A stretch of 64,000 nt of DNA from Lentibacter sp. XHP0401 (GTDB taxonomy: Bacteria > Pseudomonadota > Alphaproteobacteria > Rhodobacterales > Rhodobacteraceae), in the NCBI RefSeq assembly GCF_025751535.1, contig NZ_JAOWLC010000005.1, positions 124,001 to 188,000 of the forward strand. The letters are read 5' to 3'. The position numbers and the translations under genes were made by a program. Shown in pieces: positions 32,922 through 49,061 of the stretch. How positions within the stretch are numbered: the stretch's first letter is position 1; each line of letters begins with the position of its first letter. The notes under the pieces were generated by a model, which did no database searches, was not told the DNA's origin, and saw nothing but the letters and a program-made list of their open reading frames with translations.

Positions 32922-34460
32922 TCAGGCAAACGATTTAATAGTTTCGATTGCCCCGTCCAAGGCTTTGCCTTCCGGATCTTGCAACGCCGCCTCACGTAAG
33001 CGTGCCATCCACTCGGCAGCATCTTCACGCCCTTGGAGCAATTCGGCGCTTTTCATCAGCTTGTCAAATTTACCAAGGCCGCGCGTGTGGGTGTCAGAAT
33101 ATCCTTTGATCAGCCTGCGGTTCTTCAAAAGCTCGATGCAAAGCCCGTAGTCGGTATCAAGCGAAGCCAGCGATGCCGAGAGCCATTTTTCCAAATGCTG
33201 GAGTTCGACGGCGTGGCGATGGGTCTTGAGACGGTAAGATTTCATCCCCCCGAGCACATGTAGCATAGCAAAGGCGCGCAACGTATCAGTGCGCAGGCGA
33301 CGCCCCTTCCCGAACCAACGTGTTAGCCGTTCCATGGCTTTCGGATTTGCCTCCAGACGCGCGCCCATTTTTGCGGGCAGCATTCCAGTGATCTCTTCGG
33401 CACGCGGATGAAAATACTCCGTCAGTTGCATAACATTTTCATCACGAACACCCATTTCACGACGAATCCTCATCATACGTGGCGCGCGGGTTTTCAAATC
33501 GGCAACACGGATGATGTCATCATAGCACATGGCATTTGCGATATACTTGGCAGCCGTTTGAGAGAGCATCCAGCCTTGAGCCGCACTGTCGCGGGCGACA
33601 ATTTTGTCAAGGTGATCAAGGTAGGCTGCACCATATATACAGTCTTGATAGTCTACTGTTTTCGCTAGCCCTGCCTCGGCAATTTCACGCACTTCGGCCG
33701 GTAATTCTAACAGGCGCGCTACGAGGTTATGCCATGCGTCCAGTTGCTTTTCTGGCCCAACAATCTGGCGTGGCTCCGGAGCTTTGTCTGTGACCACAGG
33801 AACGGCCGCGCCCTGTGTCGCAGCCTCAAAGCCCGCATTAAAAGCTCTCAACGAAGCCTCGACACCCTTTCCCGAAGCACGGATCGCATCTTCAAATGCC
33901 GCCCGCTCAAATGGCAAGGCGCCCGAGCCGGCCAACGCACCAAACAACGAGGACGAAATAACCGAGCCTTGCTCGGTTGCCAAACGGTCCATATCCGCGA
34001 GGATTAATCTTTGTGCAGCAATTTCCGCACCCGCACGCACTTCATCACTGTCAGCCATACCGTTTCCTGGGGCGGCCTTCTCACTGTATGCGAGTGAACG
34101 GTGCGTCGACCCGATCAGTGTCGTCCGATCAGGCGTCACAAATCCGCGCATGATAGAACGGCCGACTTCCATCATCTCGGAGGCGATGAGCACATCCACA
34201 TCTCCCCCTGATGGTGCGAGGGCAAACACAGGTTGCTGCTCAGATACAGGCGTCATTTCCACATAGTAGACCGTAGATCCAGTGCGCTGGGCGACACCTG
34301 CCACAGAGGTGGCCTGGCAAGCATAGCCTTGCGACCGTGCCAAAGCCTCTATCCACGATGTCAGGACCCCGCCGCCCTGTCCGCCGACCGCCATAATGGC
34401 AAGCTTCAGGATAGCAGCGGTTTGGGCATCAGGCCCACGGTCTGGTAAAAGAGCGTTCAT
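32922..34460 (-). CDS. iorB: 2-oxoacid:acceptor oxidoreductase beta subunit (IorB-like, with DUF6537-type extension)
   Basis: A 512-aa partner of IorA, from the ATG at 34460, overlapping the iorA stop by ATGA; an upstream extension in frame is rejected. The N-terminal POR gamma-type domain has LAIMAVGGQGGGVLTSWIEA (about 18-37) and ATSVAGVAQRTGSTVYYVEM. It is longer than archaeal IorB (about 200 aa): from about residue 215 there is a helical extension of the kind seen in bacterial aerobic IorAB (motif RMMRIRREMGVRDENV). The pair would oxidatively decarboxylate an aryl 2-oxoacid to its CoA ester. Proposed substrate here is 2-aminophenylglyoxylate (isatinate), which is inference. Confidence 0.82.
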   Translation of the reverse strand: MNALLPDRGPDAQTAAILKLAIMAVGGQGGGVLTSWIEALARSQGYACQATSVAGVAQRTGSTVYYVEMTPVSEQQPVFALAPSGGDVDVLIASEMMEVGRSIMRGFVTPDRTTLIGSTHRSLAYSEKAAPGNGMADSDEVRAGAEIAAQRLILADMDRLATEQGSVISSSLFGALAGSGALPFERAAFEDAIRASGKGVEASLRAFNAGFEAATQGAAVPVVTDKAPEPRQIVGPEKQLDAWHNLVARLLELPAEVREIAEAGLAKTVDYQDCIYGAAYLDHLDKIVARDSAAQGWMLSQTAAKYIANAMCYDDIIRVADLKTRAPRMMRIRREMGVRDENVMQLTEYFHPRAEEITGMLPAKMGARLEANPKAMERLTRWFGKGRRLRTDTLRAFAMLHVLGGMKSYRLKTHRHAVELQHLEKWLSASLASLDTDYGLCIELLKNRRLIKGYSDTHTRGLGKFDKLMKSAELLQGREDAAEWMARLREAALQDPEGKALDGAIETIKSFA

Positions 34461-36607
34461 GATACATTCCCCGATAGGCGCAGGCGCTTGGCGTCGCGGC
34501 GGGTTTGTAGAGCTGTAACAATACGTGCACGCAATCCGGAGCGCCACTTTTCAAAACCGCTTGGGTTATGCACAACATCCGCCTGATAAAAGGAAGGGCA
34601 GAGCACTGCCGTATCGGCAACTTCTCCACAGTTGCCGCAGCCCACACAAGTTTGGTCAATGTGCGCGACAGGATCATCGCGCAGCGGATCATCCAGCGTT
34701 TTGAGCGACAAGGACGGGCAGCCAGACAACCGCATACAGGCGTGATCACCTGTGCAAACATCGCTATCCACACCAAAACGCGGCACGTCCACACGGCGGC
34801 CATCCTTGATCGCTTTGGCACGCAAAGGCTTTTCTCGGCGCTGTTTGTTGAGCATACACTCAGAGGAAGCCACAATCACTTTGGGGCCGTCATAATCTGT
34901 TGTCAGGGCTTCGTGCAGAACTTCGCGTAGCTTGCCCACATCATAGGTGCGATCAATCTGACGAATCCACTTCACGCCAACTCCCTCAAGCGCTTTGGAA
35001 ATCGGATTGTTCGTCGATTTGGTGTCGTTGTCTGCACGCGATGACAACACGTCCTGACCGCCTGTCGCCGCCGAGTAATAATTATCAACAATAACGGCAA
35101 CAGAATCCGATTTGTTGAACACCATATTACCGATCGAGCTACTAAGCCCGTTGTGCCAAAAACCGCCATCACCCAACATGGAAATCGCGCGTCGTTCACC
35201 ACCGCCGTCAAATGCGGCGTTGGATGCGGGGCCGAGCCCGTAACCCATCGTTGCGCCGCCAATTTCAAACGGGGGCAAAGAACCGAACAAATGACAGCCA
35301 ATATCACCGGTAATTTGGTGCTTGCCCAACTCTTCTTGGGTTAATTTCATCGCAGCAAAAATAGGCCGCTCAGGACACCCGGTGCAGAACCCGGGCGGGC
35401 GGATCGGCACGGTTTTACTTAGGTCGGGAATTGCAGGAGCGTCCATATTCGGTGCGCGGATGTGATCTGGCAGCATATCTGGCGCTGCTTGTTTGAGAAA
35501 TGCAGTCACCCCGTCAAGCATCACTTGCCCCGTGTATTCACCGGCCATTGGCAATACATCTTTGCCATGTAGCTTAACACTCCGCCCGGCCTTGTAGAGA
35601 AAGCTGCCAAGCTGCTGTTCGATGTGGTCAGGCTGGCCTTCTTCCACAATCATCACATGATCCTTGCCCTCGCAGAAGGCATCAAACTCGGATTGAACGA
35701 TCGGATAGGTAACATTCAGCACATAAAGTGGGATGTCAGTATTTCCGAAAGCATCTGCAAGGCCAAGGCGCTGCAACGCACGGATTACGCCGTTGTACAT
35801 GCCTCCTTGCAGGACGATGCCAATCGGGGCATCTGCGGGGCCGAAATGTTCGTTCAATTTATTATCAACAATAAATTTTTCAGCATCGGGCCAGCGGTTG
35901 TTGATCTTGTCCTGTTCGTGAACATAGCTCCATGGCGGCAAAACCACCCGTTTAAAATCACTCTGCGGATTGGCAGCAGCATCCTTCACCGTCAGTTTCG
36001 GACGCTGGTTGTCTTTAGTTTGAAAACTGCCTGTCACATGACAAGCGCGAATGCGCACCATTAGCATGACAGGCGTGTTGGACGCTTCTGACAGCTCAAA
36101 CCCGTCTTTCACTGCCTTCGTGATCGAAGGCAAGTTGGGACGCGGATCAAGCATCCAGAACTGCGATTTCATAGCAAATCCGTGGCTGCGCTCCTGCATA
36201 ATGGACGAGCCCTCACCATAATCCTCACCCACAATAATCAGAGCGCCACCTGTCACACCGGAAGAGCTTAGGTTGGCAATGGCATCAGAGGCAACGTTGA
36301 CGCCAACGGGGCCTTTGAAGGTTACGGCGCCGCGGATTGGATAATGCACGGAGGCCGCCAGCATGGCCGCCGCCGCGGCTTCAGATGCGTTGGCTTCGAA
36401 CCGTACGCCAAGTTCTCCCATCAAATCCTCTGCATCGGCCAGAACGTCCATCAGATGCGAAATCGGTGCGCCCTGATACCCCCCCACATAACCAACGCCA
36501 TTTTCCAAAAGCGCTTTGGTGATTGCGAGAATACCCTCGCCAGTGAACGTGTCGCCGTCACCTTTACGCAGATGTTCGACTTCGGCTTTAAATGATCGTT
36601 CTGCCAT
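34457..36607 (-). CDS. iorA: Indolepyruvate ferredoxin oxidoreductase-type alpha subunit (IorA-like)
   Basis: A 716-aa TPP-dependent oxidoreductase. The N-terminal pyrimidine-binding domain (about 30-200) begins with VGYVGGYQGAPISHLMDVL. The central TPP domain has GFCTGCPERPIF (about 390) and the GDGGFWHNGLSSSIGNM TPP/Mg motif (about 480). The C-terminal part holds two [4Fe-4S] ferredoxin motifs, CTGDHACMRLSGCP and CVGCGNCGEVADTAVLCP (about 625-680). It is led by the marR gene nine bases upstream on the same strand. The substrate is inferred from the operon across the promoter, which ends in isatin hydrolysis. Confidence 0.88.
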   Translation of the reverse strand: MAERSFKAEVEHLRKGDGDTFTGEGILAITKALLENGVGYVGGYQGAPISHLMDVLADAEDLMGELGVRFEANASEAAAAAMLAASVHYPIRGAVTFKGPVGVNVASDAIANLSSSGVTGGALIIVGEDYGEGSSIMQERSHGFAMKSQFWMLDPRPNLPSITKAVKDGFELSEASNTPVMLMVRIRACHVTGSFQTKDNQRPKLTVKDAAANPQSDFKRVVLPPWSYVHEQDKINNRWPDAEKFIVDNKLNEHFGPADAPIGIVLQGGMYNGVIRALQRLGLADAFGNTDIPLYVLNVTYPIVQSEFDAFCEGKDHVMIVEEGQPDHIEQQLGSFLYKAGRSVKLHGKDVLPMAGEYTGQVMLDGVTAFLKQAAPDMLPDHIRAPNMDAPAIPDLSKTVPIRPPGFCTGCPERPIFAAMKLTQEELGKHQITGDIGCHLFGSLPPFEIGGATMGYGLGPASNAAFDGGGERRAISMLGDGGFWHNGLSSSIGNMVFNKSDSVAVIVDNYYSAATGGQDVLSSRADNDTKSTNNPISKALEGVGVKWIRQIDRTYDVGKLREVLHEALTTDYDGPKVIVASSECMLNKQRREKPLRAKAIKDGRRVDVPRFGVDSDVCTGDHACMRLSGCPSLSLKTLDDPLRDDPVAHIDQTCVGCGNCGEVADTAVLCPSFYQADVVHNPSGFEKWRSGLRARIVTALQTRRDAKRLRLSGNVS

Positions 36608-36616: not shown

Positions 36617-37078
36617 TTAAAAATCGTGTTTACGGATATTGCGCAACATTTTCTGCAAAGTGCCAATCAGCGCCGCCCGTTCGCTGTCTGAAATACCTTT
36701 GAACATCGCTTCGCTAGCGATGGCCATATGCGGCCATAAACGCGTATGAGCCGCGCGGCCGGCTTCGGTTAGAAAGACATGAAAAGCGCGGCCATCATCT
36801 TGGTTTGCCTTGCGCACAATCAACCCGTCTTTCTCCAGGCCATCCAGCGCACGACTAAGGGTGGACTGCTCCACCACCGCATACACCGCCAACTCACGGA
36901 TCAAGATACCATCATGAACCGACAGCACCGCAAGCGCCCGAAGTTTTGGCGTTGTCAGGCCCAGTGCTATGACCTCTGTGTGAAGCGCAGAATTGTAGCG
37001 CCCCATGATGCGGTTCATCAAGTATGGGACAAAGTTTTCGAGGCCGAGGGCATCGAGGTTTCTCGGTTCATTGCTCAT
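36617..37078 (-). CDS. MarR-family regulator 1
   Basis: A 153-aa winged-helix regulator. The recognition region is IRELAVYAVVEQSTLSRALD, followed by the wing IVRKANQDDGRAFHVFLTEAG with the family Asp-Gly-Arg tip; helices at both ends form the dimer. It is the first gene of a unit with iorA (gap of nine bases) and iorB. MarR proteins of this type are usually repressors released by an aromatic ligand. The adjoining site at 37100-37116 is a candidate operator. Confidence 0.9.
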   Translation of the reverse strand: MSNEPRNLDALGLENFVPYLMNRIMGRYNSALHTEVIALGLTTPKLRALAVLSVHDGILIRELAVYAVVEQSTLSRALDGLEKDGLIVRKANQDDGRAFHVFLTEAGRAAHTRLWPHMAIASEAMFKGISDSERAALIGTLQKMLRNIRKHDF

Positions 37079-37131: not shown

Positions 37132-38445
37132 TTACATTTGTGAAGGCAGGAACAGAACGAGTGTCGGAAAGGCGAGCAGTAAAATCAATCTCAAAATATC
37201 CATTAACCAGAACGGTGTCACACCTTTAAAAATCGTACCGGTTGTCACGTCTCCGACAACACCTTTTAGCACAAAGACATTCAAACCGACGGGAGGTGTA
37301 ATGAGGCTGATTTCGGTCACCACGACAACAATGATACCAAACCAGACCGGATCAAACCCGAGACTGGTAACCAACGGAAAAAAGATTGGCACGGTCAGCA
37401 GCAACATTGACATACTCTCGAAAATACACCCCAGCGCAATGTAGATAAGGAGGATCAACCCCATCACGACCCAAGGCCCCATATCTAAAGCGGTCACAGC
37501 GGCCAAAAGCCCCTCGGGCAAGCCTGCAAGATTAACGAAGTTAGAGAATATCCAAGCCCCTATGAGCACCGCAAAAAGTGAGGCCGAGGTCAACGTCGTT
37601 TCTTCCATCACTTCGCGCATCCCGCGCCAACTGAGGCCACCACGTGCCAACGCAATCAGGAAGGCGCCTGCTGCACCCATTCCTGCGGCCTCCGTTGGAG
37701 AAAACGCCAAGTGAATTGGCCAGAAGTCCAATGCCCCGTAGAGACCGCCAATGACAAGCCCAAACAAAAGCAAGACTGCCCAAACATGACTGAGCGCGCC
37801 AAATCGGTCGCTCCAGCTTGACCGCGGGCCAGCAGGCCCGGCTTCAGGGTTGCGTACCACGGTAATTTTCACGGCGACCAGATACAGCAAGATTCCGAGG
37901 AACCCCGGAATAATGCCCGCGACAAAAAGCTGGCCAATAGAGGTTTCGGTCAATAGGCCGTAAATCACGAGAATAACTGACGGTGGTATCAGGATACCTA
38001 GTGTGCCACCTGCGGCAATAGAGGCTGTCGAAAGACTATCGGCGTAACCGTATTTACGCATTTCAGGCATCGCTACCTTGGACATGGTCGCCGCTGTCGC
38101 CAACGATGACCCACAGATCGCGGCAAAGCCACCACAGGCCACAATCGTTGCCATTGCCAATCCGCCGCGAAAATGCCCCAGAAAAGCGTTTGAAACGTTG
38201 TAAAGTTCGCGGCTGATACCTCCTTTGTTCACAAATAGTCCCATAAGGATAAAAAGCGGAATGACTGAAAGTCCGTAATCTTGTGAGGTGTCTATGATCA
38301 AACGACCTACTACCGATATGGCGGCTCGATAGCTGGTTTCATAAGCAAGGCCGACCATACCGACAAAACCCATAGCAAAGGCGATGGGAATACGCAGCAA
38401 CACGAGCAGGAAAACGGCGACAAAGCCGATGGCTGATTCAATCAT
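37132..38445 (-). CDS. dctM: TRAP transporter large permease (DctM)
   Basis: A 437-aa inner-membrane permease with about 12 hydrophobic helices. Family landmarks: FAMGFVGMVGLAYETS, VIPLFILMGLFVNKGGISRE, the CGGFAAICGSSLATAATMSKVAMPEM block (about residues 96-121; only quoted in part: GSSLATAATMSKVAMPEM) and ISLITPPVGLNVFVLKGV near the C-terminus. It overlaps dctQ by eight bases and lies downstream of dctP. TRAP carriers import carboxylates, using a sodium gradient; aryl acids fit the neighbourhood. Confidence 0.93.
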   Translation of the reverse strand: MIESAIGFVAVFLLVLLRIPIAFAMGFVGMVGLAYETSYRAAISVVGRLIIDTSQDYGLSVIPLFILMGLFVNKGGISRELYNVSNAFLGHFRGGLAMATIVACGGFAAICGSSLATAATMSKVAMPEMRKYGYADSLSTASIAAGGTLGILIPPSVILVIYGLLTETSIGQLFVAGIIPGFLGILLYLVAVKITVVRNPEAGPAGPRSSWSDRFGALSHVWAVLLLFGLVIGGLYGALDFWPIHLAFSPTEAAGMGAAGAFLIALARGGLSWRGMREVMEETTLTSASLFAVLIGAWIFSNFVNLAGLPEGLLAAVTALDMGPWVVMGLILLIYIALGCIFESMSMLLLTVPIFFPLVTSLGFDPVWFGIIVVVVTEISLITPPVGLNVFVLKGVVGDVTTGTIFKGVTPFWLMDILRLILLLAFPTLVLFLPSQM

Positions 38446-38944
38446 ATTGGGAAACCAGAGTTTGTGGAGCGAAAATATGTAGAAATGCGCGCCCGATCAG
38501 CGCGACAGCCGTAAGATATGTCATCACAGCAACGAAATAAGCAACGTAATATGTGGGAATTTGAAGATACTCGGTAACATCACCATAGCTTTTGGCACGC
38601 ACCGCTAGATCAACAATGCGCCCCGCAGGCCACCAGAGCATTGCAGCACATGCAAGAGCTACGAGTGCATCACGCACACGCTCAAGCCGGAATTTCCGAA
38701 ACGGTCCATCGAGCAAATCAACTGCAATATGTTGGTTTCTGGCAGACAAAACCGGCAACGCGGCAAAGACAATCAATGCGATCCCCATGCGGATCAATTC
38801 TGTCGCGGCCTCGATCGGTGCATTGAAGATCGAACGCATCAGTACGTCGGCAAAGGTCAGGCACATCAGGGCAAAAAGCGCCATCGACGCGATAAACATC
38901 GGCAACTGCGATAGTGCTTTTAGAAACAGTATGACAGGCGGCAT
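38438..38944 (-). CDS. dctQ: TRAP transporter small permease (DctQ)
   Basis: A 168-aa four-helix membrane protein. The ATG at 38944 (MPPVILFLKAL) has AAGGATAG upstream, and earlier in-frame starts are not preferred. Motifs: FADVLMRSIFNAPIEAATEL (about residues 28-47) and HIAVDLL, both typical of the DctQ family. It bridges the binding protein and DctM. Confidence 0.85.
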   Translation of the reverse strand: MPPVILFLKALSQLPMFIASMALFALMCLTFADVLMRSIFNAPIEAATELIRMGIALIVFAALPVLSARNQHIAVDLLDGPFRKFRLERVRDALVALACAAMLWWPAGRIVDLAVRAKSYGDVTEYLQIPTYYVAYFVAVMTYLTAVALIGRAFLHIFAPQTLVSQYD

Positions 38945-38977
38945 AGAGCTATCCTTACGGGTAATGATGTAAAGAAA

Positions 38978-39005
38978 CAGGCGTGCCATTGACGCGACAC
39001 GCCTG
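38978..39005 (-). terminator. Hairpin between dctP and dctQ
   Basis: CAGGCGTG (38978-38985) pairs with CACGCCTG (38998-39005) across a 12-base loop; on the minus strand it is followed by TTTCTTTACA. A weak terminator or attenuator that would leave dctP mRNA in excess. Confidence 0.6.
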
Positions 39006-39020
39006 AATATCATGTGAGCC

Positions 39021-40043: not shown

Positions 40044-40108
40044 AAGATCGTTCTCCCGTTGATCATTCTCTGCCCTATCAGGCCGTTCGCCGGACTCAGC
40101 AGAAATTA

Positions 40109-40127
40109 TATGCGTTTTCATGCAAAC
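40109..40127. promoter_or_regulatory. Candidate regulator site upstream of dctP
   Basis: ATATGCGTTTTCATGCAAAC carries a near-perfect inverted repeat, GTTTTCATGCAAAC (40114-40127), in which GTTT-x-CATG-x-AAAC is symmetric except for one pair. It shares ATATGCGTTT with the site before marR-iorAB, suggesting one regulator for both units. Confidence 0.45.
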
Positions 40128-40172: not shown

Positions 40173-40652
40173 TCAGTTTTTCCCGTCGCGCTTTACTTCG
40201 AGTGCTTCGAGCAGAGAATGCAAAGCCGTTTTTAAATGCCTGCCATCACTGTCATTGAGCTGTGCAAGCAAATATGTTTCATGGCGCCGGGCGTCGGGAA
40301 CAAGACTGCTGACCAGAGAGCGTCCTTCATCGCTGAGATAGACCCGGACACGGCGGCCATCATTCGGATCACCTTTACGGGAGACCAGACCCCGTTCTTC
40401 CATCTGTATAATGATGCGAGTGAGACGGGACTGCTCCGCCAAGGCAATACGCGCAAGCTGGGTGATCATCGCTCCATCGTTGTCATACAAGCAAGCAAGA
40501 ACACGCCACTCAGGAACTCGCAGCCCTGCCTGACGCACCTGTGCGTGAAACTGGGCGCTCGCAGCTTCACTGGCAGCAGCCAAGAGATAAAGCAGATAAT
40601 CGTCAACAAACCCGGTCTCGGTGTCGATACTTTGCGTCTTAGATTGCTTCAA
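40173..40652 (-). CDS. MarR-family regulator 2
   Basis: A 159-aa winged-helix protein with recognition part LARIALAEQSRLTRIIIQME and the wing LVSRKGDPNDGRRVRVYLSD. It is divergent from the oxygenase operon with a 135-base gap holding a palindrome, and it also lies just upstream of the TRAP genes. In iad-type auxin loci a MarR protein represses the operon until IAA binds; here there are two MarR proteins, and which one binds the inducer is open. Confidence 0.9.
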   Translation of the reverse strand: MKQSKTQSIDTETGFVDDYLLYLLAAASEAASAQFHAQVRQAGLRVPEWRVLACLYDNDGAMITQLARIALAEQSRLTRIIIQMEERGLVSRKGDPNDGRRVRVYLSDEGRSLVSSLVPDARRHETYLLAQLNDSDGRHLKTALHSLLEALEVKRDGKN

Positions 40653-41744: not shown

Positions 41745-43085
41745 ATGGCTAACTACACTGGAAATCCGACTGCAGCCGCAGCATTAGTGCAACCTCATCA
41801 AGTGCACCGCGATATCTATATAAATCAAGACATTTACGCGCTCGAAATGAAGCATGTGTTCGCAAATTCCTGGGTTTTTGTCGGACATGAAAGCCAGACA
41901 CCTGAAAAAGGCGATTACTTCGCCACGCAAATCGGCGATCAGCCCGTAATCCAAGTCCGCCATAAGCCTGACGACATTCATGTTCTGTATAACCGCTGCC
42001 CGCACAAAGGCACCAAGATCGTGATTGACCGGCAAGGCAATACTGGAAAATTCTTCCGCTGCCCTTATCACGCATGGTCGTTCAAGACTGACGGCTGTCT
42101 GCTCGCCATCCCTTTGAAAAAGGGCTATGAAGGCACGGGGCTTGAAAAAACCGACAGCGGAAAAGGCATGAAAGCCGTTGGTGCCGTGAAAAACTATCGC
42201 GGCTTTATTTTTGCACGTCTGGCAGAAGAAGGCATCAGCTTTGAAGATTTCTTCGGCGATAGCCTCAGTTCGCTTGATAACATGGTGGACCGCTCGCCCG
42301 AAGGGAGGCTCGAGGTTGTCGGCCAGCCGCTACGCTACTTGCATTATTGCAACTGGAAGATGCTGGTAGAGAACCAGACAGACACTTGCCATCCTATGGT
42401 AGCACATGAATCAAGCGCAGGCACGGCTGTCAAAATATATGAGGATTTAGACCTCCCCGCAGGCACGCCCAAGCCGGCCGCCATGGAGATCATCGCGCCA
42501 TTCATGTCACCCTATGAATTCTTCGAGGACATGGGCATCCGCACTTGGCCAAACGGGCATGGCCATACTGGCGTTCATCACTCAATCCACTCAGATTACT
42601 CTGCCATTCCCGGCTATGTTGAAGCAATGAGTGAGACCTACGGTGAGGAGAAGGCCAAAGCCATTCTGGACGAGAACCGGCACAACACGGTCTACTTCCC
42701 CAACATCATGATCAAGGGCCCGATCCAACAGTTACGCAACTTTATCCCACTGGCCGCCGACAAAACCATTGTGGAAAGCTATATCTACCGCCTTGTCGGC
42801 GCGCCAGATGAACTGACCGCGCGCACGGCAATGTATAACCGCATGATCAATGCTCCCACATCAATCGTCGGCCATGACGATTTGGAAATGTACGAACGTG
42901 CTCAAGAAGGTCTGCACGTCAATGGCATCGAATGGGTGAACATCCAGCGCCTGCTGGAAGAGAATGAGGACTTCTCGGAGGAAGCCGTATTGAACGGCAC
43001 GACCGAACGCCAGATGCGCAATCAATTCGACGCATGGCGCAAGTTTATGACATACGATTCAGAAAAACAGGAGGCAGCGGAATGA
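41745..43085 (+). CDS. iadD: Rieske ring-hydroxylating dioxygenase alpha subunit (IadD-like)
   Basis: A 446-aa catalytic subunit. Rieske cluster ligands are Cys85-Pro-His87 (CPHKGTK) and Cys106-x-x-His109 (CPYHAWSF). The mononuclear iron site has the His216-x4-His221 pair (CHPMVAHESS) with Asp213 nearby; the third ligand should be near DDLEMYERAQEGL late in the chain. Only 12 bases separate it from the reductase. Proposed reaction: cis-dihydroxylation of the indole C2-C3 bond of indole-3-acetate. Alpha-subunit families take many aromatic acids, so the substrate rests on the neighbours. The symbol follows published iadDE usage and is provisional. Confidence 0.88.
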   Translation: MANYTGNPTAAAALVQPHQVHRDIYINQDIYALEMKHVFANSWVFVGHESQTPEKGDYFATQIGDQPVIQVRHKPDDIHVLYNRCPHKGTKIVIDRQGNTGKFFRCPYHAWSFKTDGCLLAIPLKKGYEGTGLEKTDSGKGMKAVGAVKNYRGFIFARLAEEGISFEDFFGDSLSSLDNMVDRSPEGRLEVVGQPLRYLHYCNWKMLVENQTDTCHPMVAHESSAGTAVKIYEDLDLPAGTPKPAAMEIIAPFMSPYEFFEDMGIRTWPNGHGHTGVHHSIHSDYSAIPGYVEAMSETYGEEKAKAILDENRHNTVYFPNIMIKGPIQQLRNFIPLAADKTIVESYIYRLVGAPDELTARTAMYNRMINAPTSIVGHDDLEMYERAQEGLHVNGIEWVNIQRLLEENEDFSEEAVLNGTTERQMRNQFDAWRKFMTYDSEKQEAAE

Positions 43086-43555
43086 GCATTTCGAAAGACC
43101 AACTGATTGACTTCATCTACGATGAGGCGCGTATGCTCGATGAAGGTCGCTACTCCGAGTGGCTCGCACTTTGGTTGCCAGATGGGCATTACTGGATGCC
43201 TCTTGACTACAAACAAAGTGATCCGATCAACCAAACCTCACTACTCTACGAAGACCTTTTCATGCTCAACCTGAGAGTGGAGCGCCTGAACGGTGCACGC
43301 ACTTTCAGCCAAAAACCCAAAAGTCGCTGCCACCATGTTATCCAGCGCCCCTTTGTGGATGAAATGAACGGAGACAGCTTTGTGACCAATACCGCGATGC
43401 ATTACGTCGAGACGCGACTTGACGAGCAGCAATTGCTTGCCCTCACCGCGCGTCATGATTTGAAGCTGGTGGAAGGTAAGCTACGGATTGCAAACAAGCG
43501 CGTAGATATCCTCAACTGCGATGCAGCGTTCCGTAATATCCAGTTATTGCCATGA
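43082..43555 (+). CDS. iadE: Ring-hydroxylating dioxygenase beta subunit (IadE-like)
   Basis: A 157-aa structural subunit of the SnoaL/NTF2 fold, starting with an ATGA overlap on the alpha gene; the longer frame back to 43034 lies inside alpha. Landmarks: LIDFIYDEARMLDEGRYSEW (residues about 8-27), LALWLPDGHYWMPL, and RCHHVIQRP in the middle. It forms the alpha3-beta3 holoenzyme. Its stop overlaps the CoA ligase start by ATGA. Confidence 0.88.
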   Translation: MSISKDQLIDFIYDEARMLDEGRYSEWLALWLPDGHYWMPLDYKQSDPINQTSLLYEDLFMLNLRVERLNGARTFSQKPKSRCHHVIQRPFVDEMNGDSFVTNTAMHYVETRLDEQQLLALTARHDLKLVEGKLRIANKRVDILNCDAAFRNIQLLP

Positions 43556-45156
43556 TTTCATCTGACACTGTTTTTGGTGCTTTTTCCGATAGTGCTGCGC
43601 GCTGGCCTGAACGGCCCTTTCTAAATGTCATGCCAGAAACGGCAAACATCTACGAAATTGAAGCTGGAGAGATAACTTATGGCGATGCACTGGCTCAGGT
43701 GCAAAGCTACGCGACCCAAATTAGCGCGGCAGGCTACCGCAAGGGCCAGCGGGTAATGCTCCTGCTCGAAAACCGCCCGAGCTATTTTTTGTGGTGGCTT
43801 GCTTTCAACAAGATTGGTATTTCGGTCGTTCCGATCAATCCCGATTTGCGCGCCGCCGAGCTGTCGTACATGATAGGCCACGCAGAGCCAGTTCTGGCAA
43901 TCGCGCTCGAAAACAGATGTGATGAGCTACGCGAAGCTGCTAGGAATGCTGGAACTCCTCTGAATGTCATCCAGTTTGGTGACCCTTTGCCCAACGCCAA
44001 AACGACCGTCTGCATCGCAACCAGAGAAGGCGACCCTGAGGCTGCATTGCTCTATACCTCTGGCACAACAGGCAACCCCAAGGGTTGCATACTGACCAAC
44101 GAGTATTTCATTGAAGCAGGCCGCTGGTATTCCTCGGCAACTGGCATTTGCGCACTCAACACAGATGGCGAGCGGATGATCACCCCGCTGCCTATCTTCC
44201 ACATGAACGCGATGGCATTTTCTTTCATGGCGATGATTGCGGTGGGGGGATGTCTCACTGCTCTAGACCGCTTTCATCCCCGCTCCTGGTGGACGTCTGT
44301 ACGTGAAAGCAAGGCAACTTGCCTTCACTATCTGGGAGTCATGCCCTCAATGTTGATGAGTGCTGTTGCTTCTGACGAAGACAAAAACCATACGGTAAGG
44401 TTTGGTTTCGGCGCGGGTATTGACCCAAAACTCCACGCTTCATTCGAAGAGCGCTTCGGCTTTCCCCTCAGCGAAGGGTGGGCAATGACCGAAACAGGCG
44501 CTGGCGGCACGATCTGCGCAAACCGCGAACCCCGAGTAATAGGCAAAAGCTCGATCGGCTCACCCGATGAAAAAGTCGAGGCGCGTTTGGTTGATGACAC
44601 TGGCAACGATTGCGAGCATGGCGAATTGTTGGTGCGCGCAGTTGGGCCAAACCCTCGCAAAGGCTTCTTTGCAGGCTACTTCAAAAATGAAGTAGCCACT
44701 GACGAAGCTTGGCAAGGCGGTTGGTTTCACACGGGCGACATTGTGCGCCGTGAAGCTGACGGGATGATGTATTTTGTAGATCGTAAGAAAAACGTGATCC
44801 GCCGCTCGGGAGAAAATATCGCTGCCGTGGAAGTGGAAAGCGCACTGGCCAAACATCCTGCAATCGCGGGCGTTGCTGTGGCTGCGGTTCCCGATGAAAT
44901 CCGAGGCGACGAAGTCTTCGCGTGCATCATCCCGAAAATGGGTGCATCTCGGGAGTTGGCTTATGAAATCACCCAGTGGTGTCTTACACAACTCGCTTAC
45001 TACAAAGCGCCCGGGTATATTGCTTTTGTAGACAACCTTCCCGTCACTGCCACTCAGAAATTACAGCGCGCCACACTGAAAACCCTGGCGAACGATCTTT
45101 TGGGCGACTCAAATACAATTGACACCAGACATTTGAAAAAGCGGTCGGCAGCATGA
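43552..45156 (+). CDS. AMP-forming CoA ligase of the cluster
   Basis: A 534-aa ANL ligase with P-loop LLYTSGTTGNPKGCIL (about residues 165-180), the ATP/hinge region EGWAMTETGAGG (about 310), WFHTGDIVRREADG and RKKNVIRRSGENIAAVEVES (about 405-430), and the catalytic Lys near LPVTATQKLQRATLK. It overlaps both neighbours by ATGA. Expected job: form the CoA ester of the oxygenated acid (proposed: 3-hydroxy-2-oxindole-3-acetate) so the next enzymes can remove the acetyl unit. Other aryl acids cannot be excluded. Confidence 0.88.
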   Translation: MISSDTVFGAFSDSAARWPERPFLNVMPETANIYEIEAGEITYGDALAQVQSYATQISAAGYRKGQRVMLLLENRPSYFLWWLAFNKIGISVVPINPDLRAAELSYMIGHAEPVLAIALENRCDELREAARNAGTPLNVIQFGDPLPNAKTTVCIATREGDPEAALLYTSGTTGNPKGCILTNEYFIEAGRWYSSATGICALNTDGERMITPLPIFHMNAMAFSFMAMIAVGGCLTALDRFHPRSWWTSVRESKATCLHYLGVMPSMLMSAVASDEDKNHTVRFGFGAGIDPKLHASFEERFGFPLSEGWAMTETGAGGTICANREPRVIGKSSIGSPDEKVEARLVDDTGNDCEHGELLVRAVGPNPRKGFFAGYFKNEVATDEAWQGGWFHTGDIVRREADGMMYFVDRKKNVIRRSGENIAAVEVESALAKHPAIAGVAVAAVPDEIRGDEVFACIIPKMGASRELAYEITQWCLTQLAYYKAPGYIAFVDNLPVTATQKLQRATLKTLANDLLGDSNTIDTRHLKKRSAA

Positions 45157-46322
45157 CGCGTCAATCATATGAAGGTGTTGTTCTAACAGCGCCGATTTCG
45201 GTTCCTTATGTGCGGTACACAAACGAAACTGCACATTGGTGGATTGCCAGAGCTCTGCGTGAGGCATTGATCAAGATCAAGATGACCCCGCAAGAGATTG
45301 ACGGCTTATCCGTGTCTAGCTTCACGCTTGCACCAGATACACCTGTTGGCCTGACGCAGCATCTTGGCATCTCGCCTCGCTGGCTTGACACTGTGCCCAT
45401 GGGCGGTGCTTGCGGTGTTGCAGCCATACGCCGCGCTGCGCGAGCGATACAGGCGGGAGATGTTGATGTTGTCGCCTGCGTCTCGGGTGACACCAATCGC
45501 ATCGACAGTTTTCGTAATCTGCTCAGCGCCTTTTCCCGCTTCGCCATGGACGCTACGTTTCCCTATGGTTTTGGCGGGCCCAACGCCAGCTTTGCGCTGC
45601 TCCAAGATGCCTATATGCAAGAGTTCGGCGCAACACGGGAAGACTTCGGCCGCATCGCAGTTGCCCAACGTGTCAATGCATTGAGTAACCCTCAAGCGAT
45701 AATGAAAAACCCATTGACGCTTGAACAATACATGGGCGCGCGGATGATTTCAGATCCCATCGGACTGTTTGATTGCGTCATGCCTTGTGCTGGTGCGGAA
45801 GCGTTTGTGATGATGCGTGAAGAAACGGCAGTTGCTAAAGGTCTGCCGTTTGCTCGCATTTCATCAACGATCGAGCGCACCAATGCGTTTCCAGATGATC
45901 CGATCCAGCTGCGCGGCGGTTGGGCCGTTGATATTGATGACCTTTGGGCGATGGCAGGACATGGTCCAGAAGCCATTGATTTGTTGCAAACATATGATGA
46001 CTACCCCGTGATTTGTATGATGCAATTCGAAGACCTGGGCTTTTGCGCCAAGGGCGAAGGCCCAGATTTTGTGCGCAAACACGACCTTACGAACGGGGGT
46101 GACTTCCCGCATAATACTTCTGGTGGCCAACTCTCTGTAGGACAAGCGGGTGCTGCAGGTGGCTATCTAGGACTTGTCGAAGCGATCCGCCAAGTCACGG
46201 GGCAAGCGGGCGGCACACAGGTTGAGAATGCAAGGCGTGCTTTGGTTTCGGGCTTTGGAGTGATCAACTATGATCGCGGCCTATGTTCCTCCGCAGCAAT
46301 CATTACAGGGGAAACCGTATGA
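45153..46322 (+). CDS. SCP2/Ltp2-type thiolase-like protein (candidate retro-aldolase)
   Basis: A 389-aa thiolase-superfamily member of the lipid-transfer-protein class. The N-terminal Cys is present (Cys87 in GGACGVAA), but the usual GHP motif reads GQA (Gln331 in NTSGGQLSVGQAGAAGG, residues 321-337), so the canonical thiolase His is gone. YDDYP (281-285) and MQFEDLGFCAKGEG are SCP2-thiolase landmarks. In actinobacterial steroid degradation Ltp2 with a DUF35 protein does retro-aldol cleavage of a tertiary beta-hydroxyacyl-CoA. The DUF35 partner is the next gene here, so I propose cleavage to isatin plus acetyl-CoA. Confidence 0.82.
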   Translation: MTRQSYEGVVLTAPISVPYVRYTNETAHWWIARALREALIKIKMTPQEIDGLSVSSFTLAPDTPVGLTQHLGISPRWLDTVPMGGACGVAAIRRAARAIQAGDVDVVACVSGDTNRIDSFRNLLSAFSRFAMDATFPYGFGGPNASFALLQDAYMQEFGATREDFGRIAVAQRVNALSNPQAIMKNPLTLEQYMGARMISDPIGLFDCVMPCAGAEAFVMMREETAVAKGLPFARISSTIERTNAFPDDPIQLRGGWAVDIDDLWAMAGHGPEAIDLLQTYDDYPVICMMQFEDLGFCAKGEGPDFVRKHDLTNGGDFPHNTSGGQLSVGQAGAAGGYLGLVEAIRQVTGQAGGTQVENARRALVSGFGVINYDRGLCSSAAIITGETV

Positions 46323-47569
46323 CAAGCGCCCTTCCTTTCCCCTCAAAGAAAGACCCGCAGAAACACACCCCTGTTCCCGTTTTGCCACCCGTATCACGCT
46401 CGCGCGCTTCCCTCGGGTTGGGTGTCATGGCTGCACAAGGGCGCTTTGGTTTGCAAGTCTGCGTCGAATGCGAAGCTGTGCAATACCCACCACGCGATGC
46501 ATGTCTAAAATGTCTCTCGAGCGAACTAAACTGGCAGGATGTCTCTCCTTACGGGACCATACTGGCTGAAACGACAATCCGTGTCTCACCCGAACCCTAC
46601 TTTCGCGAACGAATGCCATGGCGCATGGGATTGGTGAAGCTAAACGCCGGACCAATGTTGAACTGTCATTTGCACGGCGAGGTCGGCCGCGGCAATAATG
46701 TCCAAATGGCGCTCAAACTAGATAAAGCTGGGCAAGGTGTGTTGATCGCGCTCCCACTGGAAGGAAGCGAGAACATGCAAGATGACCCGACGTTGCGCGC
46801 CATGTCGTGTAACCCAAAGCGACGGCGCATTCTGATCAGCGATGCGCGTGCCCCTATAGCACTGGCGTTAACCGAAGCCTTGCTCAAAGCTGGAGCAAGT
46901 CACGTTTTTCTCGGAGAGCCGGAAGCATGGCGTGCGTGGCCAGAACGCAAGGCTTTTGAGGGGCGGGAGAATGTTTCGCTGTTGCCGCTTGATGCCACCG
47001 ATACCAGTTCAATCGCCAAATTGAGTGCTGAAATTGGCGGCAAAGTCGATATCCTGATCAACACGGCCAGCTTCGTCCGCTCAGGCGGTGTTCTGGGCAA
47101 CGATACAACATTTGCACGGGACTGTTTTGATGTGAACACTCTGGGTTTAATGCGGCTGGCGCAAGGTTTTGGTCCGGGCATGGCCGCTCGTGCGCAGGAC
47201 GGCATAAATTCAGCCACAGCTATTGTAAGTATCCTTTCGGTTCAGTCCCTTATGCCTGACAAAAACTACAGCGCCTACGCTGCAAGCCAAGCAGCCGCGC
47301 ACTCGATCACCCAGAGCTTGCGAGCAGAGTTTCGTGGATCAGGATTACGTTTGGTAAACGTATACATCGGGCCTATCGAGGGGGATCCTTGGTTTCAACA
47401 CCTTCCGCCTCCAAAAGTGACACCAAACGCCGTAGCCCGTGCAACTGTAAACAGCTTGATTGAAGGGCTTGAAGAAGTCCCCTGCGGCGACATTGCGAAA
47501 GACATTTACGCACGGTGGCGCGCAGATGCGCTGCTACTCGAGCGGGAAATCACCGGAGAAGCCCCATGA
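46319..47569 (+). CDS. DUF35 (zinc-ribbon/OB-fold) fused to an SDR-like domain
   Basis: A 416-aa fusion. Residues about 40-155 are a DUF35 ChsH2-like domain with a rubredoxin-type zinc ribbon (Cys48, Cys51, Cys62, Cys65 in CVECEAVQYPPRDACLKC) and an OB-fold. From about 168 comes an SDR-like Rossmann domain, but its dinucleotide loop reads ISDARAPIALAL instead of TGxxxGIG, NNAG is NTAS, and the catalytic Tyr-x3-Lys is Tyr320-x3-Gln324. The redox function therefore appears lost, so the second half may be a scaffold. ATGA overlaps on both sides. DUF35 partners an Ltp2-like thiolase; see the gene before. Confidence 0.82.
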   Translation: MTSALPFPSKKDPQKHTPVPVLPPVSRSRASLGLGVMAAQGRFGLQVCVECEAVQYPPRDACLKCLSSELNWQDVSPYGTILAETTIRVSPEPYFRERMPWRMGLVKLNAGPMLNCHLHGEVGRGNNVQMALKLDKAGQGVLIALPLEGSENMQDDPTLRAMSCNPKRRRILISDARAPIALALTEALLKAGASHVFLGEPEAWRAWPERKAFEGRENVSLLPLDATDTSSIAKLSAEIGGKVDILINTASFVRSGGVLGNDTTFARDCFDVNTLGLMRLAQGFGPGMAARAQDGINSATAIVSILSVQSLMPDKNYSAYAASQAAAHSITQSLRAEFRGSGLRLVNVYIGPIEGDPWFQHLPPPKVTPNAVARATVNSLIEGLEEVPCGDIAKDIYARWRADALLLEREITGEAP

Positions 47570-48339
47570 GCGACAGTATCGCAAATGTGACCGATGCACT
47601 GGCTAGCGGAGCGGCGCGGATCATAGATTTGACCCACACACTAGACCCCGATTTTCCAGTGATTATTCTTCCGCCAGAGTTTGGCCAATGCGCCCGCTTT
47701 CGTATGGAAGAGGTCAGCGCCTATGACCATCGCGGACCTGCTTGGAAGTGGCATAACCTGACATTGAACGAGCATACAGGCACGCATTTTGATGCCCCCA
47801 TCCATTGGATTTCAGGTAAAGATGTGCCCAACGGTGCAGTAGATGAGATTGACCCCGCGGCCTTCATTGGTCCTGTAGTGGTGATTGATTGTTCGGCTGG
47901 CGCAGCTACGGACGATGACTTTGAGCTAACGCCCGAGACTATTGAGGCATGGGAAACCGAGCACGGCATGATCCCTGCGGATACATGGGTGTTGATGCGA
48001 ACCGATTGGTCTAAACGCAGCGGAACGGATTATCTCAATATGGCACCGGATGGTCCACATTCACCGGGGCCGACGCCAGCGGCGGTAGAGCTTCTGTTAA
48101 AGCGTAATATTCGCGGCTTTGGCACAGAAACTGTCGGCACTGACGCGGGGCAAGGCATGCATTACGTGCCGCCATATCCTGCACACTATTTGCTGCATGG
48201 AGCCGGAAAATTCGGGCTGCAATGCTTACGCAATCTGGATCAAATGCCCCCTACAGGTGCGCTTTTGATAGCGCCCCCACTCAAGATAAAGGGCGGCACG
48301 GGTAGTCCGCTCCGTGTCTTGGCGATGGTGACAAGATGA
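47566..48339 (+). CDS. Isatin hydrolase-like cyclase-family protein
   Basis: A 257-aa metal-dependent amidohydrolase (PF04199 cyclase family). The metal motif is HTGTHFDAPIH (residues 70-80; His70, His74, Asp76, His80). The long insertion with TDWSKRSGTDY, the SPGPTPAAVELLL block and DAGQGMHYVPPYPAHYLLH resemble the characterised Labrenzia isatin hydrolase rather than kynurenine formamidase, which is shorter. Expected reaction: isatin to isatinate (EC 3.5.2.20), manganese-dependent. Overlaps the neighbours by ATGA on both sides. This gene is the strongest single clue to the pathway. Confidence 0.82.
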   Translation: MSDSIANVTDALASGAARIIDLTHTLDPDFPVIILPPEFGQCARFRMEEVSAYDHRGPAWKWHNLTLNEHTGTHFDAPIHWISGKDVPNGAVDEIDPAAFIGPVVVIDCSAGAATDDDFELTPETIEAWETEHGMIPADTWVLMRTDWSKRSGTDYLNMAPDGPHSPGPTPAAVELLLKRNIRGFGTETVGTDAGQGMHYVPPYPAHYLLHGAGKFGLQCLRNLDQMPPTGALLIAPPLKIKGGTGSPLRVLAMVTR

Positions 48340-49061
48340 GCAATTACACTGCAATTATTACTGGCGGCAGCAAAGGCATTGGAGCCGACTTGGGCCAGCG
48401 CCTAATCGAGAAGGGTTATACAGTCATTTCCCTATCGCGCGGTGCGCCCGAATGGAACAACTCAAAGCTCGTGCATGTGGAAGTCGACCTACTCAGCGCA
48501 CAAGCAACTGCGCAAGCCGCTGCCGAAATCGTGGCTCAGCATGAAGTATCACATCTGGTGCACAACGCCGGGATGATCTTGCCTAGTTTAGTTGAGGACG
48601 CCAAGCAAAGCGACCTTACAGATCTAACGCAACTACATCTTGGGTGCGCACTTACTTTGCTGCAAGCCTGCCTTCCCTCGATGAAGGAAAAACACTTCGG
48701 CCGCGTATTGTTCAACGGCTCGCGGGCTGCACTTGGAGTGCCGACGCGCACAGCATACTCGGCCACAAAAGCAGGCATAATTGGCATGGCGCGCACTTGG
48801 GCGTTAGAGTTGGCGCAGTATGGAATAACTGTAAACGTTGTCGCGCCGGGTCCAGTCCAAACCGATAACTTTTGGGGCATTATCGAAAAAGGTAGCGCAC
48901 GAGAAGAAGAACTCGCAAAGCGTATTCCAGTCGGTAGACTCGGCACTGTACGTGATATCTCCAACGCGTTTCTTTACTTCTGTGACCCGGAGAACGGTTT
49001 TGTAACCGGCCAAACGCTATACGTCTGCGGAGGTGGTAGCGTCGGAACGCTTACCCTTTAG
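48336..49061 (+). CDS. Short-chain dehydrogenase/reductase
   Basis: A 241-aa classical SDR, with intact dinucleotide loop ITGGSKGIGADLG (residues 8-20), HNAG (about 89), a catalytic Ser in NGSRAALG and Tyr-x3-Lys in AYSATKAG. The C-terminus ends with YVCGGGSVGTLTL, as in FabG-like enzymes. It is the last gene of the operon, overlapping by ATGA. Best guess: dehydrogenation of the 2-hydroxyl of the cis-dihydrodiol, giving the 2-oxo group of dioxindole-3-acetate. That assignment comes only from pathway need. Confidence 0.88.
   Translation: MSNYTAIITGGSKGIGADLGQRLIEKGYTVISLSRGAPEWNNSKLVHVEVDLLSAQATAQAAAEIVAQHEVSHLVHNAGMILPSLVEDAKQSDLTDLTQLHLGCALTLLQACLPSMKEKHFGRVLFNGSRAALGVPTRTAYSATKAGIIGMARTWALELAQYGITVNVVAPGPVQTDNFWGIIEKGSAREEELAKRIPVGRLGTVRDISNAFLYFCDPENGFVTGQTLYVCGGGSVGTLTL

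Follow-up and report, generated by a model that had tools for sequence, protein, structure and literature searches.

Does the gene cluster at positions 32922–49061 of a 64,000-nucleotide stretch of Lentibacter sp. XHP0401 (contig NZ_JAOWLC010000005.1; we designate the whole stretch the window) encode the degradation of the auxin indole-3-acetate (IAA), and by which steps? Auxin exchange between marine bacteria and algae has been reported. The interpretation that the window holds a complete iad-type IAA locus, consisting of iadCDEFGHIJ, 2 MarR genes, a TRAP transporter, and iorAB (Table 1), is largely supported by the protein sequences, and it is probable that this is an aerobic IAA catabolic locus of a roseobacter operating through the steps set out below. 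All gene families named in the original prediction are present as open frames, which were confirmed by family models or solved relatives. The TRAP transporter, an inverted repeat, and the altered active sites of IadG and of the SDR half of IadH lie outside the list given in that prediction.

Table 1. Features of the locus and its flank, in window coordinates.
Feature	Position	Strand	Basis
livFGMH and substrate-binding protein (SBP), ABC cassette beside iorB; membership uncertain	27981–32495	-	Pfam
iorB/iadB, 2-oxoacid oxidoreductase beta subunit (PRK08312, POR + DUF6537), proposed isatinate oxidoreductase	32922–34460	-	NF006179, Pfam; start inferred from frame
iorA/iadA, TPP-binding alpha subunit with ferredoxin-like Cys motifs	34457–36607	-	IOR_alpha, TPP_enzyme_C
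Second MarR regulator, 3CJN type, IadR2-like by position and missing IAA contacts	36617–37078	-	58.5% identity to 3CJN
TRAP transporter dctM, dctQ, dctP, candidate IAA uptake system	37132–40121	-	Pfam DctM, DctQ, DctP
iadR-type MarR repressor (predicted)	40173–40652	-	60.6% identity to 3CDH
Inverted repeat, candidate IadR operator	40751–40768		TATATGAA-AA-TTCATATT, 7 of 8 base pairs
iadC, oxygenase reductase	40788–41732	+	Fer2 and NAD_binding_1 (Pfam)
iadD, Rieske oxygenase alpha subunit	41745–43085	+	Solved relatives, pocket residues, tree
iadE, Rieske oxygenase beta subunit	43082–43555	+	Ring_hydroxyl_B (Pfam)
iadF, acyl-CoA ligase	43552–45156	+	AMP-binding and AMP-binding_C (Pfam)
iadG, thiolase-fold protein, proposed retro-aldolase	45153–46322	+	Active-site residues, fold
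iadH, DUF35 (zf-ChsH2 + OB_ChsH2_C) fused to degenerate SDR domain	46319–47569	+	Pfam
iadI, isatin hydrolase A	47566–48339	+	80.3% identity to LaIHA 5nnb
iadJ, SDR dehydrogenase	48336–49061	+	Intact catalytic residues

With the inferred start codons, the genes from iadD to iadJ overlap by 4 bases at 6 junctions (D/E, 43082–43085; E/F, 43552–43555; F/G, 45153–45156; G/H, 46319–46322; H/I, 47566–47569; I/J, 48336–48339), and iorA and iorB also overlap (34457–34460). Comparison with the best 80 of 572 confirmed IadD loci, a sample that is biased to close relatives, revealed the complete set of 8 genes from iadC to iadJ in 55 of the 80 loci and in 49 of the 60 that span at least 20 kb; this conserved gene order disfavours a chance grouping. 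IadG, IadI, and IorA were all absent from the available sequence of 17 of the best 80 loci, in some cases because the contig ends. Among 6 loci found phylum-wide, 5 had the G-H-I genes without IadD within the stretch read, which indicates that G-H-I can serve other upstream enzymes.

The first step would be the oxygenation of IAA by IadCDE, a reaction demonstrated by others on relatives. The closest solved relatives of IadD are the Variovorax IadD structures 9o71 and 7yls/8h2t (E about 1e-169), and the next family is represented by the 3-phenylpropionate dioxygenase 8k0a (E 2.6e-39). All metal ligands and 8 of the 9 residues of the IAA pocket of Variovorax IadD are kept; the sole pocket difference, Leu211 to Gln, occurs in all of the best 80 loci, in which relatives of IadC and IadE were found in 76 and 80 cases, respectively. 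In the tree, the alpha subunit did not fall into a clade of another substrate and clusters with iad-context proteins, including that of Ruegeria pomeroyi; Variovorax IadD adjoins this cluster, where it meets 4 other long branches, so that the join may be false. A Pantoea locus encodes an IadDE-like pair (54%) with all 9 pocket positions as in the window, and F–J and iorAB are absent from the stretch read there; the pocket alone is thus no proof of the whole pathway. The cis-2,3-diol that the original prediction assigned to this oxygenase does not match a 2025 preprint, in which IadCDE is reported to be a monooxygenase whose reaction probably passes through an epoxide (PMC12633357). The product would be dehydrogenated to dioxindole-3-acetate by IadJ, in which the TG...GIG motif, Ser129, Tyr141, and Lys145 are kept in 71/71 relatives; this step has likewise been demonstrated by others on relatives.

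IadF would then form the CoA ester of dioxindole-3-acetate, on which IadG and IadH should act. The Cys nucleophile of thiolases is replaced by Gly85 in IadG, and this residue together with the base Tyr281, Asp283, and Gln331 is found in 63/63 relatives and in 17/17 of a second set that partly overlaps the first. In the column of Gly85, Cys is present in all 5 thiolases that scored over the cut-off in this genome, a control that is partly built in because its frames were chosen via thiolase motifs. The top fold matches of IadG are the Sal-Shy and Ltp2-ChsH2 aldolases, the catalytic residues of which are known (PMC12329534). Comparison with these DUF35-partnered retro-aldolases revealed that (i) IadG shares the thiolase fold, the lack of the Cys nucleophile, the Tyr of the YDxF/Y motif, and a DUF35 partner; (ii) IadG has neither of the proven aldolase acids (Cys304 of Sal and Tyr344 of Ltp2), its own acid being Asp283 or another residue, and therefore would work like Ltp2 and Sal but belongs to neither subfamily; and (iii) the DUF35 of IadH is fused to an SDR-fold domain, whereas that of the Ltp2 and Sal systems is found with a MaoC hydratase fusion. 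The zinc Cys4 site of IadH is kept in 62/62 relatives. Its SDR half retains the SDR fold, and the SDR Lys and the first Gly of TGxxxGxG are each kept in 0/62; in a second set, one divergent IadH had the Lys and 6/18 had the Tyr.

Judged from these residues and from the aldolase analogy, IadG and the DUF35 half of IadH should cleave dioxindole-3-acetyl-CoA into isatin and acetyl-CoA by a retro-aldol reaction, in which Tyr281 would act as the base and Asp283 probably as the acid. The SDR-fold half, which appears to have lost its cofactor and catalytic motifs, would have an inert, structural role. A thiolase mechanism for IadG was rejected because the nucleophile is missing, and redox activity of the SDR-fold domain was rejected in view of the lost motifs. 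The SCP2-type thiolase of the original prediction has the thiolase fold; its chemistry looks like retro-aldol cleavage, not thiolysis. The compound that built up behind IadI in Variovorax was C8H7NO2 and not isatin (C8H5NO2), a result interpreted by the authors as a sign that the side chain is removed reductively (PMC12633357).

Isatin would be hydrolysed to isatinate by IadI. The predicted isatin-hydrolase-like cyclase is borne out by the close relation of IadI to LaIHA, a proven isatin hydrolase of Labrenzia (Roseibium) aggregata (PMC6117287), and by the metal motif of IadI: HTGTHFDAPxH, found in 64/64 relatives, fits the isatin hydrolase pattern HxG[T/A]HxDxPxH. The LaIHA gene itself is part of an iad locus in Roseibium aggregatum IAM 12614 (254/254 residues), a setting that PMC6117287 seems not to discuss, as the word “operon” is absent from its main text. 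No NCBIfam family matched the cyclases.

What IorAB contributes was approached through co-occurrence in 394 genomes, reported as raw counts that ignore kinship. IorB scored 654 bits against NF006179 (cut-off 348) and has the Pfam POR and DUF6537 domains; IorA scored 272 bits against IOR_alpha, below the cut-off of 651, and a CxxCxxC motif was read from its sequence. IorB was present in 34 of the 35 IadD genomes (1/35 was without it) and in 56 of the 359 genomes without IadD; hence, its presence does not mark iad genomes alone. Isatin hydrolase was found in 75/90 IorB genomes (absent in the other 15) versus 3/304 without IorB, and in the IadD-lacking genomes alone the counts were 41/56 versus 2/303. 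IorB and a B-type hydrolase lie within 10 kb in 49 of the 64 genomes with both, 36 of these 49 being without IadD, and the IorAB-linked hydrolase copies are of the LaIHB type. One of 8 IadD-lacking module loci (G251) comes from a genome with no isatin hydrolase at the threshold used, and, in another locus (L111), 2 long frames that precede the isatin module gave no Pfam match and may not be real genes. A 2-aminobenzoyl-CoA-type monooxygenase cluster (ACMR) lies within 20 kb of IorB in 21/74 genomes with both. Because IorAB tracks isatin hydrolase, sometimes beside ACMR and also without IadD, it is probably an isatinate oxidoreductase that makes 2-aminobenzoyl-CoA.

IorAB would accordingly be a decarboxylating enzyme that oxidatively converts isatinate to 2-aminobenzoyl-CoA, and the monooxygenase cluster elsewhere in the genome, where ACMR is over its cut-off, would degrade this product. 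NCBIfam names the ACMR family salicylyl-CoA 5-hydroxylase. ACMR is absent in 4/35 IadD genomes; within the flanks of the best 80 IadD loci it was found in 3 and IorA in 12, and in 2 of the 6 phylum-wide loci (L149 and L151) IadG-H-I adjoins an ACMR relative. Anthranilate 1,2-dioxygenase was rejected as the exit because none is over the cut-off in the Lentibacter genome. Of the 2 end products originally considered, 2-aminobenzoyl-CoA is thus more likely and free anthranilate less so; dioxindole-3-acetyl-CoA, isatin, and isatinate, the intermediates of the original route, fit the enzymes, and its first step and side-chain chemistry are amended as described above.

The IadR-type MarR keeps 5 of the 7 contact residues of Variovorax MarR_73 (Tyr15, Ser28, His32, Trp45, and Arg46), the other 2 being Tyr and Ile versus Tyr and Leu in 3CDH. 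The Ser, His, and Arg contacts to the IAA carboxylate are among those kept. IAA binding by IadR has been demonstrated by others on a relative: 3CDH binds IAA at 0.237 μM (PMC9613470). The inverted repeat sits between the IadR-type gene and iadC. Its 8-mer TATATGAA or the complement occurs in 34/43 iadR–iadC intergenic regions, the window included, and with up to 2 mismatches the repeat has one site in the window and 0 in 100 shuffles, the pattern having been derived from that same site. The locus would be repressed by IadR, probably at this candidate operator, and released by IAA. By contrast with IadR, the second MarR has Asn and Leu at the equivalents of Ser28 and Trp45, and its second-best solved relative is 7KYM, a Bradyrhizobium japonicum reference for which an IAA site is identified (PMC11630574).

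IAA uptake is predicted to proceed via the TRAP transporter, since DctP and DctM occur together in 57 of the best 80 IadD loci and in 51 of the 60 that span at least 20 kb. Aromatic-acid uptake is possible for the neighbouring livFGMH cassette; as the usual importer of the locus it is tentatively disfavoured, as its SBP (31353–32495) has a relative in 0 of the best 80 loci and none of its 16 solved relatives is entered as IadK2. IadK2 itself belongs to a class of aromatic-acid SBPs, which tempers this rejection. In locus L120, a 45% relative of this SBP adjoins an ACMR cluster.

The iad locus of Variovorax paradoxus CL14 (Conn 2022; Ma 2023; Jiang 2025 preprint) shares IadCDE, F–J, and 2 MarRs with the window, IadG and IadH being compared by name; it has the ABC binding protein IadK2, whereas the window has the TRAP transporter in the locus. 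Both iorA and iorB, described as exclusive iad markers (Conn 2022), are present in the window. All 15 genes are found in the same order and on the same strands in R. pomeroyi SZCCDBG043 (L079), the MarRs of which correspond to 3CDH (143/145 residues for the first) and 3CJN; sequence divergence, with 78% identity between the IadD proteins, is the only difference. All tested strains with IAA loci, R. pomeroyi among them, degraded IAA (PMC9613470). Because of this identical gene order and this reported activity, the marine iad locus is not new: the roseobacter version originally proposed is present, and it was already in print. The iac loci of Pseudomonas putida 1290 and the marine Marinomonas likewise combine aerobic IAA degradation, a MarR regulator, and a Rieske oxygenase. 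They start with IacA and end in catechol, whereas none of the 16 locus-region proteins scanned with Pfam has an IacA-type, acyl-CoA dehydrogenase-like domain. The retro-aldol role of IadG, the motif loss in IadH, and the isatinate role of IorAB, as we infer them, go beyond the iad literature consulted for comparison.

These observations can be joined in one reading, which we hold to be somewhat better than an even bet, that the iad pathway consists of 2 joined modules. A side-chain module, IadC–J, would yield isatin and acetyl-CoA through a retro-aldolase whose YDDY active site is kept in place by the DUF35-pseudo-dehydrogenase scaffold. A separate isatin module of isatin hydrolase, IorAB, and the 3CJN-type MarR, which is also found without IadD on roseobacter plasmids and chromosomes, would yield 2-aminobenzoyl-CoA; IorAB would then be an isatinate oxidoreductase and not an indolepyruvate enzyme, and isatin or isatinate would be the signal perceived by the second MarR.

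It is quite unlikely that IadG works as a genuine thiolase and that IadH is an active dehydrogenase, with IadH oxidizing or reducing the CoA ester and IadG cleaving it thiolytically, although their thiolase and SDR folds would suit these roles. A tertiary alcohol beta to a CoA thioester cannot be oxidized to a ketone by ordinary chemistry, and a thiolase needs this ketone. The missing Cys of IadG, with its partly built-in control, and the missing Lys and Gly of IadH point the same way, against the names used in the Variovorax preprint (PMC12633357). An unlikely, if less remote, account accepts the iad locus and lets IorAB act on indolepyruvate or another arylpyruvate, feeding IAA-related compounds in, while isatinate gives anthranilate without it. 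The family names do read indolepyruvate oxidoreductase, and 15 of the 90 IorB genomes are without isatin hydrolase. Moreover, the Variovorax segment iadC–K2, without iadA/B, restored anthranilate (PMC12633357), which means that anthranilate can form there without IorAB. Set against this are the association of IorB with isatin hydrolase and its proximity to the B-type copies, largely in genomes without IadD.

That the locus degrades another indole-3-carboxylic acid or aryl-acetate instead of IAA itself is very improbable. The invariant Gln at the pocket position of Leu211, together with the TRAP system and the lack of an IadK2 entry among the relatives of the neighbouring SBP, would agree with another substrate. 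The conserved IAA contacts of IadR and the IAA degradation and IadR–IAA binding reported for R. pomeroyi (PMC9613470), which holds the same ordered locus, argue for IAA, although R. pomeroyi DSS-3 has a second, divergent iad locus on its megaplasmid and either locus may underlie the reported degradation.

The 2-module pathway would bring auxin carbon into central metabolism as a CoA thioester and not as free anthranilate. The comparison of 394 genomes bears on 3 open points of the iad system: the loss of the acetyl side chain, the role of IorAB, and the ligand of the second MarR. If the latter is of the IadR2 (MarR_50) type, isatin or isatinate would supply the ligand sought in vain in PMC9613470. 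If IorAB makes 2-aminobenzoyl-CoA, anthranilate, the accepted end product, would in these organisms be overflow or a by-product, and the predicted cross-feeding between auxin degraders and tryptophan/kynurenine metabolism would be altered. For a marine bacterium, an iad-type locus would provide the means to silence or consume the auxin signal that passes between algae and bacteria.

The window (contig C24, 124001-188000) carries iadC-J on the plus strand, with 4-base overlaps at six junctions from D to J given the inferred start codons, and iorAB, a MarR gene, a TRAP transporter, and a second MarR gene on the minus strand. Open frames and family models recovered every gene family listed in the original prediction, and the candidate that it had proposed is a real, complete iad locus. 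The host genome (3.71 Mb, 28 contigs, 100% complete) contains a single IadD copy, two other matches reaching 27-28% identity; the nearest relatives among the best 80 of 572 come from uncultured Sulfitobacter (91%) and Planktotalea (90%), which makes a roseobacter host likely. The TetR-type regulator and RND-type adaptor that follow iadJ had no match in the 80 other IadD loci (best 80 of 572).

Coordinates of the iad locus and of features in and around related loci
Stretch	Coordinates	Feature
Window	32922-49061	iad locus
Window	49560-54606	TetR-type regulator, RND-type adaptor, and RND-type pump after iadJ (named by eye from frames)
L099 (Sulfitobacter indolifex plasmid pDSM14862_c)	5655-6707	M20-type metallo-hydrolase adjoining the iad TRAP transporter
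L100 (Pantoea sp. Nvir plasmid)	8039-13813	IadDE-like oxygenase (54%) whose IAA-pocket residues match those of the window; amidase and FAD enzyme in place of F-J
L130 (host contig C11)	9512-11953	Second isatin hydrolase, B type, then a 520-residue frame where plasmid units have the FAD oxidoreductase

The best matches of the alpha subunit were the Variovorax IadD structures (9o71 and 7yls/8h2t, E ~1e-169), the next family following at 2.6e-39. Measured against the metal ligands and the nine residues lining the IAA pocket in the IadD structure paper (PMC10374108), window IadD retains all metal ligands and 8 of the 9 pocket residues; Leu211 of the Variovorax protein is Gln in the window and in 80/80 relatives (best 80 of 572). 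Phe251 and Lys322 differ in plasmid homologues without iad neighbors (L101, L102, L103, L107, and L108). The alpha-subunit phylogeny, proposed beforehand as a check, places window IadD with iad-context proteins including that of Ruegeria pomeroyi, with Variovorax adjoining, in a 41-row tree that includes no named IacC and whose long Variovorax branch is possibly joined falsely (tool warning). Most other-context proteins fall further out, Pantoea L100 falls inside the iad-context group on a long branch, and five loci inside that group had no IadG, IadI, or IorA in the stretch read. Three loci (L008, L009, and L059) have IadDE, with F-J undetected in the flanks read.

The R. pomeroyi SZCCDBG043 locus (L079) has the same 15 genes as the window in identical order and orientation; one of its MarRs matches 3CDH at 143/145 residues and the other 3CJN at 143/149. 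Conn et al. (2022; PMC9613470) reported that every tested strain with an IAA locus, including R. pomeroyi, degraded IAA, and that R. pomeroyi MarR 3CDH binds IAA with a KD of 0.237 uM. Iad-like operons were counted in 2 of 304 marine MAGs (PMC11630574). A marine iad locus is thus already in print. The megaplasmid of DSS-3, the replicon of that strain covered here, also bears a divergent iad locus that has iorAB and MarR genes of its own; thus, the published R. pomeroyi activity is not assignable to one locus. This iad-like locus (L122 and L123; IadD 62%, IadH 45%), found besides the window-like locus of L079, has its iorAB, a thioesterase, and two MarRs ~20 kb away.

Out of the seven IAA-contact residues of MarR_73, window IadR retains Tyr15, Ser28, His32, Trp45, and Arg46; the 2 remaining positions are Tyr and Ile in window IadR and Tyr and Leu in 3CDH. 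An inverted repeat, TATATGAA-AA-TTCATATT (7/8 pairs), which ends 19 bases upstream of iadC, is a candidate IadR operator. It is the single site in the window at <=2 mismatches and was absent from 100 shuffles, the pattern being taken from the site itself; of 43 intergenic regions between iadR and iadC, window counted, 34 contain the 8-mer TATATGAA or its complement. Where the Variovorax locus encodes IadK2, an ABC binding protein, the window locus has a TRAP system (DctP and DctM), a candidate for IAA uptake that recurs in 57 of the best 80 of 572 IadD loci (51/60 among loci of at least 20 kb). Enzymes of the M20 metallo-hydrolase type, which is represented beside the TRAP transporter in L099, can free IAA from amino-acid conjugates.

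IadG had been described as an SCP2-type thiolase; the thiolase fold holds, and the Cys nucleophile does not. In an alignment of 63 relatives with 6ok1, 4u4e, 9myr, and five TIGR01930 thiolases of the host genome (over cut-off, frames chosen by thiolase motifs), the thiolase Cys is Gly in 63/63, Gln replaces the GHP His and Ala the second Cys, and YDDY stands in place of the NEAF motif. The catalytic residues are Tyr294 and Tyr344 in TcLtp2 and Tyr302 and Cys304 in CtSal, which has Gln352 at the Tyr344 position (PMC12329534). IadG keeps the base Tyr (281); its residue in the Tyr344/Gln352 column is Gln331, and Asp283 occupies the column of Cys304. Gly85, Tyr281, Asp283, and Gln331 likewise recur in the 17 IadG copies of a second set, mostly from other lineages and partly overlapping the 63 (e.g., L099 and L106). 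The first three structural matches of the predicted IadG model (pLDDT 79, pTM 0.87) were chains of the steroid retro-aldolases 9myr and 6ok1, whose known partner domain, DUF35, is present in IadH as a zinc ribbon (four Cys in 62/62 relatives) and OB fold. The other half of IadH has SDR-fold structural matches (predicted model, pLDDT 83); here, the cofactor motif lacks its first glycine in 62/62, the catalytic Lys is kept in 0/62, and Phe replaces the catalytic Tyr in 52/62. Among 18 IadH copies of the second set, Tyr and Lys never occur together (Lys in one, L141; Tyr in six). IadJ keeps the cofactor motif and catalytic residues in 71/71.

Because dioxindole-3-acetyl-CoA is a thioester with a beta-hydroxyl group, its retro-aldol cleavage, which IadG would perform with the DUF35 domain of IadH, yields isatin and acetyl-CoA without redox chemistry. 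This proposal conflicts with the reductive side-chain removal proposed in PMC12633357 from the build-up of C8H7NO2, a compound that may have arisen through cellular reduction of isatin. The word "aldolase" is absent from the available main text of PMC12633357 and PMC11630574. In Sagittula, Pukyongiella, and Agrobacterium plasmids (L133, L135, and L136), iadG-iadH-iadI lies beside an aspartate/glutamate racemase-family gene, and no Rieske oxygenase was found in these stretches, which suggests a different substrate as isatin source.

Window IadI is 80.3% identical to LaIHA, for which isatin hydrolysis is established (PMC6117287) and which is encoded in the Roseibium aggregatum IAM 12614 iad locus (254/254 residues). 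The same 394 genomes of the family, each carrying its own genus code, were searched four times, at E cut-offs of <=1e-80 (IadD), <=1e-100 (IorB, NF006179), <=1e-40 (isatin hydrolase of either type), and <=1e-200 (ACMR, the fused monooxygenase/ene-reductase NF006101); the counts are raw, uncorrected for shared ancestry. IadD occurred in 35/394 genomes and IorB in 34 of these 35 versus 56/359 others. Isatin hydrolase occurred in 75/90 IorB genomes versus 3/304 without IorB and, among genomes without IadD, in 41/56 versus 2/303. IorB lies within 10 kb of a B-type hydrolase in 49 of 64 genomes with both, 36 of the 49 lacking IadD. On a Tritonibacter plasmid (L125), the B-type hydrolase is related to LaIHB (4j0n, E 5e-167), and the gene unit on named plasmids is cyclase-FAD oxidoreductase-MarR-iorA-iorB or cyclase-MarR-iorA-iorB. 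One 201 kb repABC plasmid (L099 and L124), non-mobilizable by PLSDB prediction, carries both the side-chain genes and a cyclase-MarR-iorAB unit. The host genome has one IorB copy at the threshold used.

Two-oxoacid oxidoreductases with an IorAB-type fold form acyl-CoA, which makes isatinate to 2-aminobenzoyl-CoA a natural reaction, and IorAB would catalyze this step. Azoarcus work points to 2-aminobenzoyl-CoA as the substrate of ACMR, whose NCBIfam family name is salicylyl-CoA 5-hydroxylase. This substrate fits the surroundings of ACMR in the host genome, where it adjoins a benzoate-CoA-ligase-type gene and one for tryptophan 2,3-dioxygenase. Together with its beta-oxidation neighbor genes, ACMR accompanies the genes above and occurred in 31/35 IadD genomes versus 112/359 others (raw counts). 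Of the 74 genomes with ACMR and IorB, 21 have the two no more than 20 kb apart, and 14 of the 21 lack IadD; eight of those 14 loci were read, and iorAB, a 3CJN-type MarR, and ACMR with its neighbors were present in 8/8 and a B-type hydrolase in 7/8 (two stretches extended). IadG through ACMR forms one continuous stretch in L120, and iorAB-iadCDEF-J is joined to ACMR in Azospirillum L105. In the stretches read for six phylum-wide iadG-iadH-iadI loci, an ACMR relative (48-52%) was present in two and IadD was absent from five. The published end product is anthranilate (PMC12633357 and PMC9613470), which Variovorax reaches without iadA/B (PMC12633357); the available text of PMC9613470 and PMC12538310, figures aside, does not assign isatinate to IorAB.

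The iad locus type itself is already known, and the window adds another member; the parts that deserve specialist attention are how the side chain is removed, the probably inert half of IadH, and what IorAB does.
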